Positions 2,338-51,895 of a DNA stretch of 64,000 nt are shown here, piece after piece (position 1 is the first letter of the stretch; every line of letters begins with the position of its first letter). Location: positions 62,001-126,000 of the forward strand of contig NZ_RHNP01000001.1 of the NCBI RefSeq assembly GCF_003950295.1, given 5' to 3'. This DNA is from Loigolactobacillus iwatensis (GTDB lineage Bacteria; Bacillota; Bacilli; Lactobacillales; Lactobacillaceae). The position numbers and the translations under genes were made by a program. The notes under the pieces were generated by a model. It worked only from the letters and a program-made list of their open reading frames with translations. It was not told where the DNA came from and ran no database searches.

Positions 2338-2382
2338 AAATACGGGATAGCCAATGGAACAAGCCATTGCTGTCCCGTATTT
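2338..2382 (+). terminator. Terminator of ohrR
   Basis: A long hairpin: AAATACGGGATAG...CAATGG pairs with CCATTG..CTGTCCCGTATTT around a short AACAAG loop, nine bases after the ohrR stop. It separates ohrR from the hydrolase gene and overlaps the first in-frame ATG of that gene, so that codon is not its start. Confidence 0.75.
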
Positions 2383-2443
2383 GAATTACTTGCCGTGTTA
2401 CATTTTAAGATGCTTATATTCGTTTCACCAAAGAAGGCCGATT

Positions 2444-3289
2444 ATGTTCAAAAAAATTTTTGCCGGGCTGTTTATTGTTTGCTTATTAACCTTGACGGGC
2501 TACTCACTTTACGTTGATCATACAGCGACCAACCAACCGCAAACACCAACCACGATTAATAAGGACTTCCAAGCATCCGCAACCCCCACGCTTTTCGTTC
2601 ACGGCTGGTTAGGTGGTGGCTTCACCTTTAATCCAATGATCAACCAATTGGCCGCCAAGCATGCTGGTGGTAAAGTCATGACTGTAACTGTTAGTACAAC
2701 CGGCCCAATTAATTATTACGGTCATTTAAATAAAAAAATGGCTAACCCAATTATTCAGATCGTTTTTAAGCGCAATTCCAGCTTCTACCGTCAAGAAGCA
2801 CATTGGCTGCAGCAAATCCTTGTGACGTTACACAAACGCTATGGTGTCACTAGCTATAATGCTGTTGGCCATTCTTGGGGTGGCAACGCACTTGTCAACC
2901 AGCTTTTATTGGATTCCAACGCAAGTACACCAAAATTGCACACCTTAGTTTTACTTGGTGCACCAATTGATGGCGCCATGCACGAAGGGACTCCTTTCGC
3001 AACCAATAATCGGCCAACGCGCCAATCCAAAAACTACCGCCGTTTAGTGGCTCGCAAATCCGTGTTGAAACGTAATCGAGCAATTCGGATTTTCAACGTT
3101 TACAGTACTTTAGACGGTAAATTAACAGATGGTGCCGGTGCCAATACTCAAGCTCAAGCAATGCGCTATCTCGTGCAAGGCCAGGTTGAACACTATCAAG
3201 AACAAAAGTTAGCCGATCTAACCCACAGTCAGTTGCACTCAAAAGGTACCGTGACCAATCTTATTGCTCACGACTTGTGGCAGCATTGA
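2444..3289 (+). CDS. Membrane-anchored alpha/beta hydrolase, DUF915 family (paralogue 1)
   Basis: A 281-residue protein from ATG 2444 (weak AAGAAGG at 2431); the earlier ATG at 2354 sits in the ohrR terminator. Residues 1-25 form one hydrophobic segment after MFKK, giving an N-terminal membrane anchor with the catalytic domain outside. The hydrolase features are FVHGWLGGG (oxyanion region), VGHSWGGN with the nucleophile Ser, an Asp in STLDGKLTDGAG, and His in the C-terminal SQLHSKGT region. DUF915 proteins are lactobacillar/listerial surface hydrolases of unknown substrate. Two further paralogues occur at 7512 and 11274. It appears monocistronic, between terminators at 2338-2382 and 3338-3376. 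Confidence 0.87.
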   Translation: MFKKIFAGLFIVCLLTLTGYSLYVDHTATNQPQTPTTINKDFQASATPTLFVHGWLGGGFTFNPMINQLAAKHAGGKVMTVTVSTTGPINYYGHLNKKMANPIIQIVFKRNSSFYRQEAHWLQQILVTLHKRYGVTSYNAVGHSWGGNALVNQLLLDSNASTPKLHTLVLLGAPIDGAMHEGTPFATNNRPTRQSKNYRRLVARKSVLKRNRAIRIFNVYSTLDGKLTDGAGANTQAQAMRYLVQGQVEHYQEQKLADLTHSQLHSKGTVTNLIAHDLWQH

Positions 3290-4146: not shown

Positions 4147-4316
4147 TGGGAGTAGGGCCAAAGTCGGTTTTAAGTTTACTGCGTAACGTAAGCTAATTTA
4201 ATAACTGTACTATAAATTAGCTGTAGTTAGGCACGTGAACCCAGACTTTTGGCCCATGTTCTAGAGTAATGATCAAAAATAATAAGAGACCAGGATTTTT
4301 ATCCCGGCCTCTATTC
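4147..4316. repeat. Intergenic repeat family 1, copy a (full length, uninterrupted)
   Basis: Read on the minus strand it begins with a GGCCGGGAT...ATCCTGGTC stem, then CTCTAGAACATGGGCC, AAAAGTCTGGGTTCACGTG, CCTAACTACAGC, a second stem (CTAATTTA...TTAAATTAG) and TTACGTTACGCAGTAAAC, ending in a CCGACTTTGGCCC arm. The same blocks recur at 16895, 24185-24545, 33245 and 51948. It also supplies a terminator-like hairpin downstream of the minus-strand cupin gene. Confidence 0.75.
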
Positions 4317-7511: not shown

Positions 7512-8402
7512 TCAATTGGATTTACCCCACAAAAATTTTAATAGTGCTTGATCAACTACCGGATTATCTTCGTGTAATCGACTGTGTTCCGCCTGTGGCC
7601 CCGTAACTCGTTTTGTTTGGTAGCTGGCCGCACGTGCTTTAATGAGGTGTGCTAGCGACGTTGCAGAGACCACGGTCACTACTTTGTCCGAGTGACTACC
7701 ATCTTTTAGATCGCCATAGATATTAAGTACTTTGGTTTGTTTAGGAAAATGATTAGCCAAGCGCTCTAAACGTAGGTACTCCGGGTGGATAATTAATGGC
7801 TGGCCACCTTCTAGAAAATGATTAACGTTTGGGCGATCAGTCCAAGTCGTGCCATCACGTGGGTGAAATTTTTCAGTATGCCCAACAATCCCATCGAAGG
7901 GTCCAGCAATCGTCACCAACTTTTTTAACCGCGGCACATCCGCCTGATTACCATGATTCATGGCGTAATAAGTTGCGGCGTAAGCGCCCATCGAATGCCC
8001 AACAATATTAACCGTCTTAATCCCGTAACGTTTTTTTAGTTGCTGCATTAAAATGGTCAACCATTTTTCGTATTGTACTTCCCCAGCACGATTCCCCGTA
8101 AAAATAACCTGAATCAGAGGATTTTTCCGCCGATTTGACCAATAGCCACTGTAGCTAAACTGCCCACTAGGACTTACCGTAACGGTCAGACGCTTACGAC
8201 CGACGTGGGCGCTTTCAATCGCGGCAATCATTTGGTTACTGGAATAGGCACTACCACGCCAACCGTGAACAAAAACGGTTGGTGTCGTTGTGTAATTATA
8301 AATAGAACGTGTTTGTTGGCGCTGCTGTACGTAGCCGAAAACCCCTAAAATAACCAATAAACTCCCAATTAACGAAATACCCCAAAGCCATTTTTGTTTC
8401 AT
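7512..8402 (-). CDS. Membrane-anchored alpha/beta hydrolase, DUF915 family (paralogue 2)
   Basis: A 296-residue protein with an N-terminal hydrophobic anchor (about residues 5-25) and an extracytoplasmic hydrolase domain. Catalytic features are FVHGWRGSAYSSNQM, VGHSMGAY with the nucleophile Ser, an Asp in the GDLKDGSHSDKVV region and the terminal block HSRLHEDNPVVD with the His. The ATG at 8402 follows TGGAGGATA. It lies 17 bp after an acyltransferase gene on the same strand, so the two likely form an operon that adds and removes acyl groups on an envelope polymer, an inference. Confidence 0.87.
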   Translation of the reverse strand: MKQKWLWGISLIGSLLVILGVFGYVQQRQQTRSIYNYTTTPTVFVHGWRGSAYSSNQMIAAIESAHVGRKRLTVTVSPSGQFSYSGYWSNRRKNPLIQVIFTGNRAGEVQYEKWLTILMQQLKKRYGIKTVNIVGHSMGAYAATYYAMNHGNQADVPRLKKLVTIAGPFDGIVGHTEKFHPRDGTTWTDRPNVNHFLEGGQPLIIHPEYLRLERLANHFPKQTKVLNIYGDLKDGSHSDKVVTVVSATSLAHLIKARAASYQTKRVTGPQAEHSRLHEDNPVVDQALLKFLWGKSN

Positions 8403-9409: not shown

Positions 9410-9822
9410 AATCCATCTCCTTCACCGTTTGACTTCTACTTTTAAGCCTAAACGGGAAATGTGAAGATAAAGTGGTTAAACTTTTGGTGTTTTCCGAAAA
9501 TGTTGCTGTAAAATGCGACAGTTTCATTTCAAGCGCGCCAAATAACGCGCTTAATTTAATTTTACGTCACATTTAATCGTCTATTTTAAACAAATACTAA
9601 CTTGTCTTTCGTTATCAATTGAGCAACTAAAACGCCATACACTACAGATTAGATTTCATTTTGTGCACGTTCCGCCAGCGCCGGAATGGAACCTAACTAA
9701 GTCTGTTCACGTGTCATTCAGTGGCCCAGCAGCATAAGCATTATTTTTTATGGTGCTATAATTTAACTACTAACGCTACACTTCACCAGCTAGAACTTGA
9801 TTAAATTATTTCAGAAAAGGTA
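9410..9822. other. Long non-coding stretch upstream of the T-box leader
   Basis: No convincing ORF. It contains a GC-rich hairpin AAGCGCG/CGCGCTT (9531-9552) followed by TTAATTTAATTTT, and a second small hairpin GTTCC...GGAAC near 9668-9692. Nothing else is recognised. Confidence 0.4.
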
Positions 9823-9857: not shown

Positions 9858-10160
9858 CATTAAATATAAATGATAAAAGCACATAACAATTTAATCGGAA
9901 TTAGCAAGCGTGTTTATCAACAGAAAATACCACCGCTGAGAAGGTATTAGGCCACTTGCAAAAAGGATAGATTGGTGTTACTTCTTGGCTTTAAGAAGTA
10001 GGTGTGGTCCGCCTTAACGGCTACGTTTATTGGTGTAGCATCTGCTGCGTCCGGAATCAATAAACGAACTGAGGCTATTGTTGTGAAACAGTAGCGAAAT
10101 TTAGGTGGTAACACGTGAAAACGTCCTACAGAGTATTTGCTCTGCAGGGCGTTTTTTATT
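9858..10160 (+). promoter_or_regulatory. T-box riboswitch leader for the ketopantoate-reductase-like gene
   Basis: The leader has T-box parts in order. A Stem I distal loop ACCGCTGAGAAGGT is closed by AATACC/GGTATT, and a lower helix is formed by GCAAG...CTTGC. An ACTTCTT/AAGAAGT hairpin and a CGTTTATTG/CAATAAACG stem follow. Then comes the T-box itself, TTAGGTGGTAACACG (10101-10115), and an intrinsic terminator ending in TTTTTTA. The UGGU bulge favours a tRNA with discriminator A. The specifier codon is ambiguous: the loop strand reads AAAAAGGATAG, so AAG and GAT are both possible. Confidence 0.8.
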
Positions 10161-10213: not shown

Positions 10214-11209
10214 ATGAAATATACAATTATTGGTGCAGGCGCTATGGGGTATCGTTATGGTGTTTTATTACAAGAAAACGCTGGGGTTGATGTTGATTTT
10301 ATCGATACTTGGCAACCGAATGTTGAAAAAGTTCGCCAGCAAGGCGGCGTAACAGTTTCCCGGAATCATCAAAATCGACACATTGTCCCAATTAACATTT
10401 ATTACCCTGAAGAATATCAAGGCAAGCCTGATGTTTGGATTGTTTTCATGAAACAAATGCAGCTTGCTGACATGTTAAAACGTTGCGCGCCGTTATTTAA
10501 TGACCAGCAAATGGTCTTTTCCGCGATGAACGGCATGGGCCATATCGATAAATTGCGTAACTACTTTAATGATGACCAAATCATTGGTGGTACCGCCATG
10601 ATTGCGACTGTCCTTAACGGGCCGGCTGATGTTGATTTCATGGGTGAGTCCGGCGCCGGTGAAATGCATATGGCTAACTACACTGAAGAAATCAACAATA
10701 ACATTAAGGCCGTCGAAAAGGATTTTAAAGCGGCCAATCTAAATCCAATCATTACAACAAACTTTATGGGAACATTAATGTCGAAAGTGGTTTTCAACGC
10801 TGTCGTCAACACACTTTGCACGATGTTTGAACTTACAATGGGACAATTCATCGAATATCCCGGTGCTAAAGAAATGTCCACCCAGTTGATGAACGAATCT
10901 TATGATGCTTGTGAGCGCGCTGGAATTCAAATGATTGAAACCCGCCAACAAGAAATTGAATCCGTAGATTACGTTAGTCGGGTTAGTAACCCACTGCATT
11001 ACCCGTCTATGTACCAGGACTTTTCTAAAGGACGGCCAACAGAAGTTGATTACATCAATGGCTATATTGCCAAAATAGGCCGTGAGCATGATTATATCTG
11101 CCGAACACACGAATTTATCACCCACGAAGTACATTTGGCCGAAATGATGCGCAAGTATAAACAGGCACCAGCTAAACAGGCAGCCACCACGGAAAATAGT
11201 ATCGCTTAA
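10214..11209 (+). CDS. Ketopantoate reductase family protein (PanE/ApbA-like)
   Basis: A 331-residue protein: an N-terminal Rossmann domain with IIGAGAMGYRYG (NADP-binding GxGxMG) and a helical C-terminal domain with SKVVFNAVVNTLCTMFE, where the conserved Lys of the family is present. ATG 10214 follows GAAAGGATG. The family reduces 2-dehydropantoate to pantoate for coenzyme A, but many lactic-acid bacterial members reduce branched-chain or other 2-keto acids instead. Control by an amino-acid-sensing T-box favours a role in amino-acid-derived keto acid metabolism rather than plain vitamin synthesis, an inference. No panB or panC neighbour is present. Confidence 0.85.
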   Translation: MKYTIIGAGAMGYRYGVLLQENAGVDVDFIDTWQPNVEKVRQQGGVTVSRNHQNRHIVPINIYYPEEYQGKPDVWIVFMKQMQLADMLKRCAPLFNDQQMVFSAMNGMGHIDKLRNYFNDDQIIGGTAMIATVLNGPADVDFMGESGAGEMHMANYTEEINNNIKAVEKDFKAANLNPIITTNFMGTLMSKVVFNAVVNTLCTMFELTMGQFIEYPGAKEMSTQLMNESYDACERAGIQMIETRQQEIESVDYVSRVSNPLHYPSMYQDFSKGRPTEVDYINGYIAKIGREHDYICRTHEFITHEVHLAEMMRKYKQAPAKQAATTENSIA

Positions 11210-11216
11210 AACAACT

Positions 11217-11275
11217 AAAAAAGCGCAATCTAAAAGGCTAGGACTTTTATCCTAGCCTTTTAAATTGCGCTTTTT
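11217..11275. terminator. Bidirectional terminator containing the family-1 core stem
   Basis: A nearly perfect 25-bp stem: AAAAAGCGCAAT, TAAAAGGCTAGGA, a short loop, TCCTAGCCTTTTA, ATTGCGCTTTTT. It serves both the panE-like gene and the convergent hydrolase. Its central GGCTAGGAC...TCCTAGCC is the core motif of intergenic repeat family 1. Confidence 0.88.
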
Positions 11276-12041
11276 ATTGGTACAAATAGTTTGCAATTAA
11301 CTTATCAACATCGGGATTTTCGTGCAACATACTATGAAAAGTATGTAAAATATTACCGTGAATAGTTCGTGCTTGATAGCTCGCCACATACGGCTCAACT
11401 AATTTGCCCATTGCTAAATCATCGGCCACCGAAATGGCACCATCTGAGTGGTAATGATCAATTTCACCAGCAATATTCAAAATCTTTAAATTAGCAGGTA
11501 ACTGTTTAGCCTGTTGTTTTCGATTAGGATAGGTTGTCGCGATACTAACAAATTTTTCCGGTGTTGGTAAGTCTGGCCGCCCATTGGTAGCGGTTAGATA
11601 ATCAAAAATAATATTACCACCACTAGAATGACCAACTAAGTTAATGTTCTGAATATGGTAATCACGTTTTAGCGTTCGCATAACAGCCACTAACTGTTTG
11701 GACTCCTTTTTGGGCTCGGCGTCAGCGCTAAAGAGAATTTTAATCGTTGGATTATTCTTTAGTGGTGCCAACTTATGAACCTTGATCTGCCCCTTTTTGC
11801 TAACATTTACCGTTAGTGCATGCTGTGCAATATCGTAATGATTTAAGCGGTGAATCATCCCCGTAAAAGAATAACGCCCGTGTAAACCTGGTACAAAAAT
11901 AGTGGCAGTTTGTTCTTGTTTAACCGAGACATCTTTTAAGACCTGTGCACGTTGGTTGAAATAAACGTTCCAGCTTAACACACCAACAAAAATAACCGCC
12001 AAAACGCTGACAATAGCCTTACTAATCTTACGCATTTTCAC
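11274..12041 (-). CDS. Membrane-anchored alpha/beta hydrolase, DUF915 family (paralogue 3)
   Basis: A 255-residue, slightly shorter paralogue of the hydrolases at 2444 and 7512. Start chosen: GTG 12041, nine bases after AAGGAGAT; ATG 12035 is a close alternative. An N-terminal hydrophobic anchor is followed by VPGLHGRYSFTG in place of the HGW oxyanion motif of the other two. VGHSSGGN carries the nucleophile Ser, an Asp lies in the GEIDHYHSDGAIS region, and the terminal HSMLHENPDVD carries the His. Cotranscribed with the membrane protein gene upstream. Confidence 0.85.
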   Translation of the reverse strand: MKMRKISKAIVSVLAVIFVGVLSWNVYFNQRAQVLKDVSVKQEQTATIFVPGLHGRYSFTGMIHRLNHYDIAQHALTVNVSKKGQIKVHKLAPLKNNPTIKILFSADAEPKKESKQLVAVMRTLKRDYHIQNINLVGHSSGGNIIFDYLTATNGRPDLPTPEKFVSIATTYPNRKQQAKQLPANLKILNIAGEIDHYHSDGAISVADDLAMGKLVEPYVASYQARTIHGNILHTFHSMLHENPDVDKLIANYLYQ

Positions 12042-12070
12042 CCACCAGATCTCCTTTAAGCACAACTACC

Positions 12071-16894: not shown

Positions 16895-17035
16895 AAACAG
16901 GAGTGTGACAAAAGTCGGTTTTGGGTTCACTGCGTAACGTAAGCCCAGACTTTTGACGCACGTTCTAGATCAATGCTCGGAAACAAACAGGAGGTTAGGA
17001 CTTTTGTCCCAGCCTCCTGTTTTTATTTAAGCATT
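16895..17035. repeat. Intergenic repeat family 1, copy b (internal deletion)
   Basis: Reads GTGTGACAAAAGTCGG, TTCACTGCGTAACGTAAG, CCCAGACTTTTG, CACGTTCTAGA, then the terminal stem. Compared with copy a at 4147, the roughly 47 bases between CGTAACGTAAG and CCCAGACTTTTG are missing. The terminal hairpin AAACAGGAGG...CCTCCTGTTTTTATTT acts as a bidirectional terminator for the convergent MFS and YueI genes. Confidence 0.75.
16985..17028. terminator. Bidirectional terminator within repeat copy b
   Basis: AAACAGGAGGTTAGGAC pairs with GTCCCAGCCTCCTGTTT around TTTT, followed by a T-rich tail. Confidence 0.8.
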
Positions 17036-22638: not shown

Positions 22639-22728
22639 TGTGTTTGAAAACCACCTTCATTAAAGTTGTTCTGCCCATTTTGGCCAAACATGCTCTTAAA
22701 GATGGGATTCTCTGCTTTTTCAAACACT
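22639..22728. repeat. Intergenic repeat family 2, copy a, in the hflX leader
   Basis: Starts GTGTTTGAAAACC and ends GCTTTTTCAAACAC: an 11-bp inverted terminal repeat enclosing about 65 bases. It begins 11 bases after the leader-peptide stop and can fold into one long hairpin in the leader RNA. Confidence 0.65.
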
Positions 22729-22883
22729 CCCTAAACGTAAATTTTGCTTAGACAATTAAGCAGCAAATTACTTATGACTTTTTAATTGAACTTATTATTA
22801 AGTTCGGCCATTTTAAATTAAGTCACGCTTTAATTTGTGGGTAATGAGATTTCGAATAATAAGAAATTTCAGGAAGGAATTTT

Positions 22884-24226: not shown

Positions 24227-24545
24227 CTCTGGGCGTTATTCTAGAACACGCGCCAAATTCGGCTTTTGTCCTAGCCTCTCATTGTTTCTGAACGTTACTC
24301 TAGAACGTGCGCCAAAAGTCTGGGTTCACGTGCCTAACGGAAGTGTTTGAAAAAACGATTAGATTCTGAGGATTAGCCTAAACAGACGAATTACCTTTGA
24401 AAAAGGTGATTTGGCTGTTGTAGCTAACCGCAGGAATCTGTTTTTTCAAACACGACTACAGCCAATTCAATAACCATAGTACGGTTATTGAATTGGCTTA
24501 CGTTACGCAGTAAACCCAAAAGCGACTTTTGTCCCACTTCCCCTC
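24227..24545. repeat. Intergenic repeat family 1, copy c, split by a family-2 insertion
   Basis: The left part (24227-24338) contains ATTCTAGAACACGCGCC, a second unit ACTCTAGAACGTGCGCC, and AAAAGTCTGGGTTCACGTG then CCTAAC. The right part (24457-24545) resumes with TACAGCC, a TTCAATAACC...GGTTATTGAA stem, TTACGTTACGCAGTAAAC and GACTTTTGTCCCACTTC. In copy a at 4147 CCTAAC and TACAGC are directly joined, so 24339-24456 is an insertion. Confidence 0.8.
24339..24456. mobile_element. MITE-like family-2 element inserted in a family-1 repeat
   Basis: About 116-118 bp bounded by perfect 13-bp inverted repeats GTGTTTGAAAAAA (24343-24355) and TTTTTTCAAACAC (24441-24453), with no ORF. The dinucleotide AC flanks both sides and could be a 2-bp target duplication, though exact ends are uncertain. 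The empty site is known from copy a of family 1. Confidence 0.7.
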
Positions 24546-26208: not shown

Positions 26209-26291
26209 AATTGTCACCCCTTTCAATAGCCAAATTGCCCACTTGAATAGTTTAAAAAGATCCTAATTAATTACCAAACCACTATTTAAAC

Positions 26292-26528
26292 TAAAAAACG
26301 TCCCCATTATCAATTACGATAACAGGGACGCCTTTGCGTGGTACCACCCAATTTCAACAAAATAACTTGCTGCACTCAAAATATTAATGACTAAAAGCCA
26401 ATTGATTCTGAACGTATAATTCGCAAAGTTATCCTGCTTGACTTGCACCATTCGTCAATTCTCTAAACACCGAGATAAATTGCTACTAACCTAATCACGT
26501 TCACATCAGATATTATTAAATTATGATG
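26292..26528 (-). promoter_or_regulatory. Tyrosine-type T-box riboswitch leader of tyrA-aroK
   Basis: On the minus strand: a lower Stem I helix GAACGT/ACGTTC, a specifier loop reading GCGAATTATACG, and the T-box TTGGGTGGTACCACG, then a terminator. Both readings of the specifier (TAT or TAC) are tyrosine codons, agreeing with the product of the gene. The UGGU bulge fits the A discriminator of tRNA-Tyr. Confidence 0.88.
26295..26332 (-). terminator. T-box-controlled terminator of tyrA-aroK
   Basis: GCGTCCC-TGTTATC pairs with GATAA-TGGGGAC on the minus strand, followed by GTTTTTTAG. Confidence 0.82.
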
Positions 26529-41141: not shown

Positions 41142-41148
41142 ACTAGAG

Positions 41149-41274
41149 AGTGTTTAGATTCTACTTTGCAATTGAGGATTATTACTGACTTCGCTGACGA
41201 TGTCGATCGGACTAGGATGAATCAAAGTCCGAATCGGCGTCTAAACGTTTTTTCTAGACACTTCCTAATGTAAT
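41149..41274. repeat. Intergenic repeat family 2, copy c (diverged)
   Basis: GTGTTTAGATTCTACTTTGC...GGCGTCTAAACGTTTTTTC encloses ATTATTACTGACTTCGCTGACG. Ends GTTTAGA and TCTAAAC are inverted, and the left half matches 39508-39545 closely. Confidence 0.5.
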
Positions 41275-50933: not shown

Positions 50934-50960
50934 TACCATTGTAAATTGAATATTAGTTAT

Positions 50961-51080
50961 GTGTCTTCAGAGGCAGGGTGTAATTCCCGACCGGTGGTTA
51001 TAGTCCACGACCCATTAGTTGTTAATGGCTGAAGCGGTGAAATCCCGCTACCGATAGTTAAAGTCTAGATAAAAGAAGAT
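50961..51080 (+). promoter_or_regulatory. FMN riboswitch (RFN element)
   Basis: All the conserved RFN blocks are present in order: AGAGGCAGGGTGTAATTCCC, GACCGGTGG, GCGGTGAAATCCCGC, TACCGATAGT and AGTCTAGAT with AAAGAAG at the end. It precedes ribU and a terminator. FMN binding would stop transcription. Confidence 0.93.
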
Positions 51081-51114
51081 TGGGCTTATTTATTTGTGAC
51101 TATAAAATAAAGCG

Positions 51115-51184: not shown

Positions 51185-51787
51185 ATGGAAAGATCAAACG
51201 TCCGCAAGCTTATCATAATCGCAATGATGTCGGCTATCTCATATGTACTACTTTTAATTGCTTTTCCAATTTTACCCGCTTTTCCGTATTTAAAAGTGGA
51301 TTTTAGTAACTTACCAGTCTTCATCACGATGTTCCTATACGGCCCTGCTGCTGGGATTGCAACGGCCTTCATTAGTGGTGTCTTAGATTTTCTAACTCAC
51401 GGTGGCGTTCCTTACTTAATTGGCGATGTCGCTTACTTCTTTGCGACATTGTGTTTCACTTTACCCGTTTATTATTTCTTCAAACGAGGTCAAAAGCGCA
51501 ATACCTTGGCTAAACCAAGCACCGGAAATATGTTAGCTGGTTTCACTTCTGGAATCTTATTGCTAACTGTCTTCATGTGTTTCGCCAATCTATTCGTCTT
51601 ACTACCAATGTACTTTAAATTCTCAGGTATTAAATTTACTGCCCCGGTCATGCAAATGGTCTTCGCTGGAATTTTACCTTTTAACTTAATTAAGGGTGTT
51701 ATTGTGAGTATTGTCTTCATGATTGCCTACGCTAAATTGTTACCTTGGTTATCGCGTAAAGTAGTGACGCCAGTCGCCAAAAGTTAG
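51185..51787 (+). CDS. ribU: Riboflavin ECF transporter S component RibU
   Basis: A 200-residue six-helix S component that binds riboflavin and works with the shared EcfT/EcfA module. The RibU pattern PAFPYLKVDFSNLPVFI and GPAAGIATAFISGVLDFL is clear. ATG 51185 follows AAAAGGAGAG. The FMN riboswitch immediately upstream confirms the vitamin. Monocistronic. Confidence 0.95.
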   Translation: MERSNVRKLIIIAMMSAISYVLLLIAFPILPAFPYLKVDFSNLPVFITMFLYGPAAGIATAFISGVLDFLTHGGVPYLIGDVAYFFATLCFTLPVYYFFKRGQKRNTLAKPSTGNMLAGFTSGILLLTVFMCFANLFVLLPMYFKFSGIKFTAPVMQMVFAGILPFNLIKGVIVSIVFMIAYAKLLPWLSRKVVTPVAKS

Positions 51788-51798
51788 AGTAATAACTA

Positions 51799-51895
51799 GC
51801 GAGTGTTGGGAAAAACATCTACGCCAAATTAGTCGGGAAAAATACTACTATAATAGAGATACTTTATAGAGATATTTTTCAAACACGACTTGGCT
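51799..51895. repeat. Intergenic repeat family 2, copy d
   Basis: GAGTGTTGGGAAAAACATC...TATTTTTCAAACACGAC. The right end matches the right end of the 24339 insertion for ten bases (CAAACACGAC). Confidence 0.55.

Follow-up and report, generated by a model that had tools for sequence, protein, structure and literature searches.

A 118-bp insert at positions 24339-24456 of the window (the whole 64-kb stretch of Loigolactobacillus iwatensis DNA analysed here) belongs to a family of elements that each form a single long hairpin, conserved in shape rather than in sequence. We consider it probable, at roughly 60%, that these elements are an ERIC-like small non-autonomous repeat family, spread throughout the Lactobacillaceae as folded sense-strand RNA at gene ends.

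The insert and its host repeat

The insert is bounded by perfect 13-bp arms complementary to each other (Table 1) and by AC on both sides (24337-24338 and 24455-24456), just as an earlier sequence-only reading of the window had described it. The predicted fold of its sense strand had a z value of -9.9, and a search of the 64-kb window with covariance model R1 gave a single match, covering positions 1-120 of the 120 in the model (116.1 bits, E = 1.8e-30). The ends of this subfamily read GGAAGTG...CACGAC, while the usual ends of the family are AGAGTG...CACGTTT. Its 5′ internal-loop block is, in other copies, the insertion site of a 45-bp module (M1), and at the window locus a 103-bp module (M2) follows position 24426 only in the sister species Loigolactobacillus backii (event 33). 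The copy at 24339 has no adjoining stop codon and lies within the host repeat, about 180 nt beyond an hflX-like gene.

The host repeat occurs at about 40 places in the L. iwatensis genome. The sequence-only reading had recognised the two halves, with CCTAAC joined directly to TACAGC, in an uninterrupted copy of the window. Genomic copies bear out this empty site: among those cleanly readable, the junction was empty in 20 and filled exactly there in 5. The similarity of host copies was 0.843 among insert carriers and 0.839 between carriers and empty copies. Since carriers are thus no more alike than carriers and empty copies, the insert was acquired repeatedly or swapped by conversion. The insert-carrying host copies do not cluster, so an insert that nested once and was then amplified together with its host repeat is not supported. 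The host repeat is a high-copy hairpin family itself, either end of which resembles GGGACAAAAGTC (window 4147-4316, 16900-17000 and 24268-24535; loci L081-L110) and a terminator-like GGCCAGGACTTTTGTCCTGGCC stem.

The proposed search of the whole 2.62-Mb L. iwatensis genome with the 118-mer returned more than 40 matches, complete or partial (E<1e-18). The arm 12-mer GTGTTTGRAAAA occurred 231 times in this genome versus once for the reversed control. In the sampled L. iwatensis sequence, 57 near-full copies with a core of 113 nt were found dispersed in intergenic positions, and near-identical copies (95-97%) were present at unrelated loci of the genome. Five places in the window had been named as relatives. 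Those at 22639 and 51799 have the family's end sequences and TA flanks but no core, and the one at 41149 contains module sequence, whereas 42165 and 61239 were unrecognisable as family members, both when the sequence was read and with the covariance model. At the equivalent of 22639, L. backii has an extra module-bearing unit beside its copy (event 32).

Table 1. Positions of the element, its parts, its host repeat and related sequences (window coordinates unless a locus is named)
Feature	Position	Strand	Basis
Full-length structured hairpin element	24338..24457	+	covariance model R1 and sequence
Basal stem, 5′ arm GTGTTTGAAAAAA	24343..24355	+	sequence; helices 1-2 covary across genera
Internal-loop block, 5′ side, TCTGAGGATTAGCCTA	24365..24380	+	near-invariant alignment columns; M1 junctions
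Variable terminal hairpin	24381..24419	+	helix 5, 16/16 pairs with compensatory changes
Internal-loop block, 3′ side, GTAGCTAACCGCAG	24420..24433	+	conserved; L. backii comparison
Basal stem, 3′ arm TTTTTTCAAACAC	24441..24453	+	sequence; helices 1-2 covary
Host repeat, left half	24268..24338	+	matches uninterrupted copies
Host repeat, right half	24457..24535	+	matches uninterrupted copies
Host repeat, uninterrupted (empty)	4147..4316	-	CCTAAC joined to TACAGC, minus sense
Short relative, ends GGGAGTGTTTGAAAAAGC...GGTTTTCAAACACATA, TA each side, core absent	22639..22732	-	sequence; no model match
Short relative, CTA then GCGAGTGTTGGGAAAAAC...ATTTTTCAAACACGAC, core absent	51799..51888	+	sequence; no model match
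Degenerate relative, module sequence CTACTTTGCAATTGAGG..., GATGTCGATCGGACT...AGTCCGAATCG between shortened ends	41144..41263	+	sequence; module sequences
Third insertion family, sites	L131:15647-15966; L124:4094-4639; L139/L158 (event 23); window 9652-9789		

Conservation of the fold

Covariation was analysed in an alignment (A1) of 55 sequences across genera with 38 base pairs. Double compensatory changes were found at 32 of the 38 pairs. Paired cells amounted to 93.6% versus 69.3% in shuffles and double-change cells to 498 versus 140 (sd 10), and pairing fell to 34-47% when the partner was shifted by 1-3 columns. Between genera, the arms were swapped wholesale with complementarity kept (GTGTTTGAAAAAGCG/CTTTTTCAAACACG, GTGTGAGGACTAGCG/GCTAGTCCGAACACG and GTGCGCAGGCAGTCG/GGCTGCCAAAGCACG), and in one further genus the basal GTG/CAC had become GAG/CTC. 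Fixed were the motifs AGAGTG and CACGTTT and the internal-loop blocks GAG[GC]A(T)TAGCCTA and GTAGCTAA[CG]CG, and the length from AGTG to CACG was mostly 111-115 nt in all genera. Because the arms change completely but compensate, with only AGAGTG, the loop and CACGTTT fixed, the inverted repeats form, as judged from this alignment, the base of a hairpin under selection and not a sequence-specific transposase end.

G-U pairs numbered 178 versus 32 A-C combinations, and the sense strand was the more stable one in 50 of the 55 sequences, so that selection acts on one strand. G-T pairs favour one strand in single-stranded DNA too, so that a role as DNA hairpin is possible. The sequence-only reading had seen a MITE-like element bounded by inverted repeats; that these are terminal repeats of the transposase type is not supported, given arms that are replaced between genera yet remain complementary, fixed loop and end motifs, and selection on one strand. 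On the alignment across genera, this role of the arms was rejected.

Position at stop codons

Among copies with a co-directional upstream gene, well over half start at its stop codon, and copies in the other orientation do not show this placement. Neighbouring genes were mechanically called ORFs of at least 90 aa, and copies of L. iwatensis and L. backii at orthologous loci are not independent. Where the upstream gene ran in the same direction, 49 of 84 elements had their 5′ end between -10 and +10 nt of its stop codon, 34 of them at 0-4 nt, while in the opposite orientation the 3′ end of the element lay at most 20 nt from the stop of the convergent gene in 1 of 65. An independent sample from other genera gave 19 of 29 (0-10 nt) versus 0 of 19 in the opposite orientation. 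Stop codons at the junctions were mostly TAA or TAG. The host repeat, used as control, had no comparable one-sided stop-codon lock.

Some elements form head-to-tail arrays, in which up to 3-4 units of divergent sequence follow one another at intervals of about 122-126 nt (L237 in genome G482, L248 in G010, L254 in G106, L225/L230 in G098), and where tested the first unit alone adjoins the stop codon.

Distribution

With the covariance model from the 55-sequence alignment, matches at E<=1e-5 were obtained in 156 of 301 Lactobacillaceae genomes and 21 of 40 genera. At most the best 12 candidates were scored per genome and most genomes with matches were at or near this number, so that copy numbers are lower bounds. 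In a sample of the order, two other Lactobacillales families had 1-6 matches at E<=1e-8 in a few genomes, and most of these loci carry AGAG(T/C)G...(C/G)CGTTT ends together with a GAGCA/GCGGA-type loop. Lactiplantibacillus modestisalitolerans has numerous occurrences of the pattern TGAGGATTAGCCTA...TAGCTAACCGCAG, and L. garii has one.

Rfam 15 contained no family over the element at gathering score, only weaker matches (psRNA14 and miRNA models). A literature search found no description of the hairpin family in lactobacilli; most subscription journals were outside its scope, so an earlier report is possible. A plasmid or phage carrier was rejected, the element having no phage match and only two plasmid matches of 71-73%, both to records of Latilactobacillus curvatus.

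Gain and loss between sister genomes

L. iwatensis is the sister of L. backii, and syntenic stretches compared with JCM 18665 are mostly 86-100% identical. Some L. iwatensis/L. backii stretches reach 98-100% identity versus about 86-97% elsewhere (L137 at C67:161-16118; L128/L140), which suggests recent exchange between the two species.

The copy at 24339 is occupied in L. backii too and, most simply, entered the host repeat before the split; empty sites therefore lie at other copies. Such sites, which had been sought in syntenic positions, were found in sister genomes. A composite of host repeat plus insert (about 295 bp) is present in L. iwatensis and absent from L. backii, where the site is cleanly empty (event 3). 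A short stand-alone copy reads CAACTA[GGAAGTG...CACGATC]TAGAT in L. iwatensis, the empty site of L. backii being CAACTAGAT (event 10). TA or CTA is repeated at its flanks, and this is the sole clean stand-alone filled/empty pair that bears on target duplication. Both copies lie at unique sites.

Modules within the element are likewise present or absent. M2 is inserted between GTAGCTA and ACCGCAG in L. iwatensis only, with flanks 99-100% identical (event 22), whereas M1 stands between GAGGATTA and GCCTA in L. backii only (event 1), and a 158-bp module is nested within the 103-bp module (event 0). Module boundaries are invariant (TA[CT...GCA]), lengths of 45, 103, 157 and 261 recur, and junctions are exact at three different sites. 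Of two Latilactobacillus sisters that are 93-95% identical, one has an array of three units where the other has one, and a further unit differs cleanly in presence between them. Many copy differences are gains or losses of units within tandem arrays, as ordinary recombination could yield them, and a 223-bp loss spans a 10-bp direct repeat (event 6).

Since sisters differ exactly by whole copies and nested modules, the family moves or recombines. The earlier claim that a non-autonomous element has moved was supported, in a broad sense of mobility, by copies that are dispersed, nested and missing from empty sites in sisters; the family itself reaches far beyond the L. iwatensis genome, to 21 genera of Lactobacillaceae.

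A third insertion family with CCATTCCGGCGCTGGCG...GGAACGCGTGGCG palindromes also differs in presence between L. iwatensis and L. backii (sites in Table 1).

Search for a mover

Among the PF13358 and PF01797 families and the inspected arm pairs, no mover was found. PF13358 (IS630/Tc1) was absent from 8 of 8 Loigolactobacillus genomes, and an IS630/Tc1 mover was rejected on this ground. PF01797 (Y1/HUH), present in 2 of the 8, was absent from L. iwatensis and L. backii, whereby an HUH/RAYT mover was rejected as well. Convergent arm pairs (C4:13.3-14.7 kb, C4:42.0-43.1 kb, C12:67.6-68.1 kb, and pairs on C2, C8 and C14), inspected among the first 100 of the 231 arm positions listed, enclosed ordinary genes and no transposase, so that no autonomous copy was recognised among them. 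The transposase with the same terminal repeats that the MITE interpretation had led one to expect thus did not appear in these searches.

Proposed mechanism and alternative explanations

As we picture the ERIC-like family, the element would be transcribed as the start of the 3′ untranslated region of the upstream gene. The folded RNA, probably bound via its internal loop, may then affect the ending or the lifetime of the mRNA, as its structure, strand bias and position suggest. New positions would arise by insertion at TA-containing sites through an activity not found here, after which recombination and gene conversion between copies would swap modules at the conserved loop sites. A bolder version is tentative and in our judgement rather doubtful: a mobile structured RNA, brought to stop codons in sense orientation or retained there, that would act as a shared 3′ control module for dozens of genes across much of the family, with hairpin modules plugged into its conserved loop.

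Ordered by weight, the competing explanations are a MITE with an unseen mover, recombination, single-stranded DNA recombination and a static RNA. In a classical MITE, the arms would be terminal inverted repeats, insertion would occur at TA, and a full-length element sharing these ends would supply the DDE transposase that binds them. The inverted ends, the stand-alone copy flanked on either side by TA or CTA whose site L. backii has empty, and the near-identity (95-97%) of copies that lie at unrelated loci are all consistent with this, and TA target duplications are known from RUP and Correia elements (PMC2229807). It is nevertheless unlikely, since arms that differ between genera yet remain complementary are unexpected for a sequence-specific transposase site, the 8 Loigolactobacillus genomes have no PF13358 protein, the arm pairs examined hold no transposase, and the structure is strand-biased with orientation-specific placement. 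Current transposition might also be absent altogether, with every change produced among old copies by slippage, gene conversion and homologous recombination. Such processes would fit the 223-bp loss across the direct repeat, the changes in array size and the host-copy similarities (0.843 among carriers versus 0.839 between carrier and empty copies), which point to an insert swapped or repeatedly acquired; the composite with its clean empty site and the TA-flanked stand-alone copy, both at unique sites, argue against it, and we rate this explanation below the MITE.

An HUH transposase or a structure-specific recombinase could also act on single-stranded DNA hairpins, much as at attC sites or in the REP/RAYT system, and modules would be swapped at the loop sites. 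Structure conserved instead of sequence, the GTAG motif at the base of the inner hairpin and the exact module junctions after TA[CT...G]CA at three different sites would agree with such a process. We regard it as very improbable: Y1_Tnp (PF01797) is absent from L. iwatensis and L. backii, the loci that were read showed no enzyme of this kind, and ends of the attC type (RYYYAAC/GTTRRRY) were not recognised by eye, the conserved ends being AGAGTG/CACGTTT. The least probable explanation is an immobile cis-acting RNA, a 3′ untranslated element or unusual terminator passed on by vertical inheritance. Its conserved structure and loop, family-wide distribution, stop-codon adjacency and many copies at the same place in L. 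iwatensis and L. backii would be expected, but 95-97% identical copies at unrelated loci, nesting in another repeat, and presence/absence between sisters with empty sites disfavour it.

Comparison with known repeat families

ERIC, Correia/NEMIS and RUP elements are summarised in PMC2229807. The closest class is ERIC/IRU (RU-1) of enterobacteria, which like the present family comprises dispersed intergenic imperfect palindromes of about 120 nt that form one long hairpin, and has no identified mover; the effects of ERIC RNA vary with orientation (PMC2229807), and those of the present RNA may do so as well. ERIC ends are short terminal inverted repeats with TA, whereas here the arms covary, the 5′ end lies at stop codons and modules nest at fixed loop sites. 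ERIC hosts are different bacteria, and the likeness concerns features of the class. RUP (mobilised by IS630-Spn1) and Correia/NEMIS elements resemble the family in size (107-155 bp), inverted ends, TA targets and hairpin transcripts, target and transcript both being putative in our case (PMC2229807). RUP is accompanied in its genome by an IS630 whose ends match its own, whereas searches of the Loigolactobacillus genomes detected no transposase of this type.

BOX elements of Streptococcus pneumoniae and S. suis also come from the order of lactic acid bacteria and combine optional hairpin modules between fixed ends with predicted RNA folds (PMC3049150). In BOX, boxB units stand in tandem between boxA and boxC, whereas the modules described here sit within both sides of the internal loop and within each other. 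The bcr repeats of the Bacillus cereus group are, in the available part of PMC3446304, interspersed, MITE-like and partly located in mRNA untranslated regions, some being predicted RNA elements. That part of the source does not report the stop-codon-locked orientation seen in our family, and the likeness is one of description.

REP/BIME elements share the property of being high-copy hairpins. REPs situated shortly after stop codons are reported from E. coli (Liang et al. 2015). As far as the available part of PMC3733652 goes, REPs have 20-40 bp and are tagged with GTAG or CGTC at one end. They are tied to Y1 transposases, whereas L. iwatensis and L. backii have no Y1.

Other features of the window

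An FMN riboswitch (50959-51084, 98 bits) precedes a membrane-transporter ORF at 51185. Two T-box-like leaders scored below the gathering score, one (26321-26504, minus strand, 80.8 bits) ahead of a prephenate dehydrogenase-like ORF at 26226 and one (9881-10131, plus strand, 44.1 bits) ahead of an ORF at 10214. Three short alpha/beta-hydrolase-like ORFs with N-terminal hydrophobic segments (2354-3289, 7512-8402 and 11274-12065) form an apparent paralogue group.

Significance for the Lactobacillaceae

A conserved, repeated RNA structure, apparently uncatalogued in Rfam, is present in about half of the sampled Lactobacillaceae genomes, mostly in many copies. The exact gain and loss of nested modules between close sisters makes steps in the evolution of small repeats directly readable. 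Since the carrier bacteria are widely used in food, genetic tools for testing exist. If the placement at stop codons reflects function, the family would be a system for studying how a mobile element becomes a shared signal at mRNA 3′ ends; if it reflects targeting, this would suggest that the way of insertion is coupled to the ends of genes.
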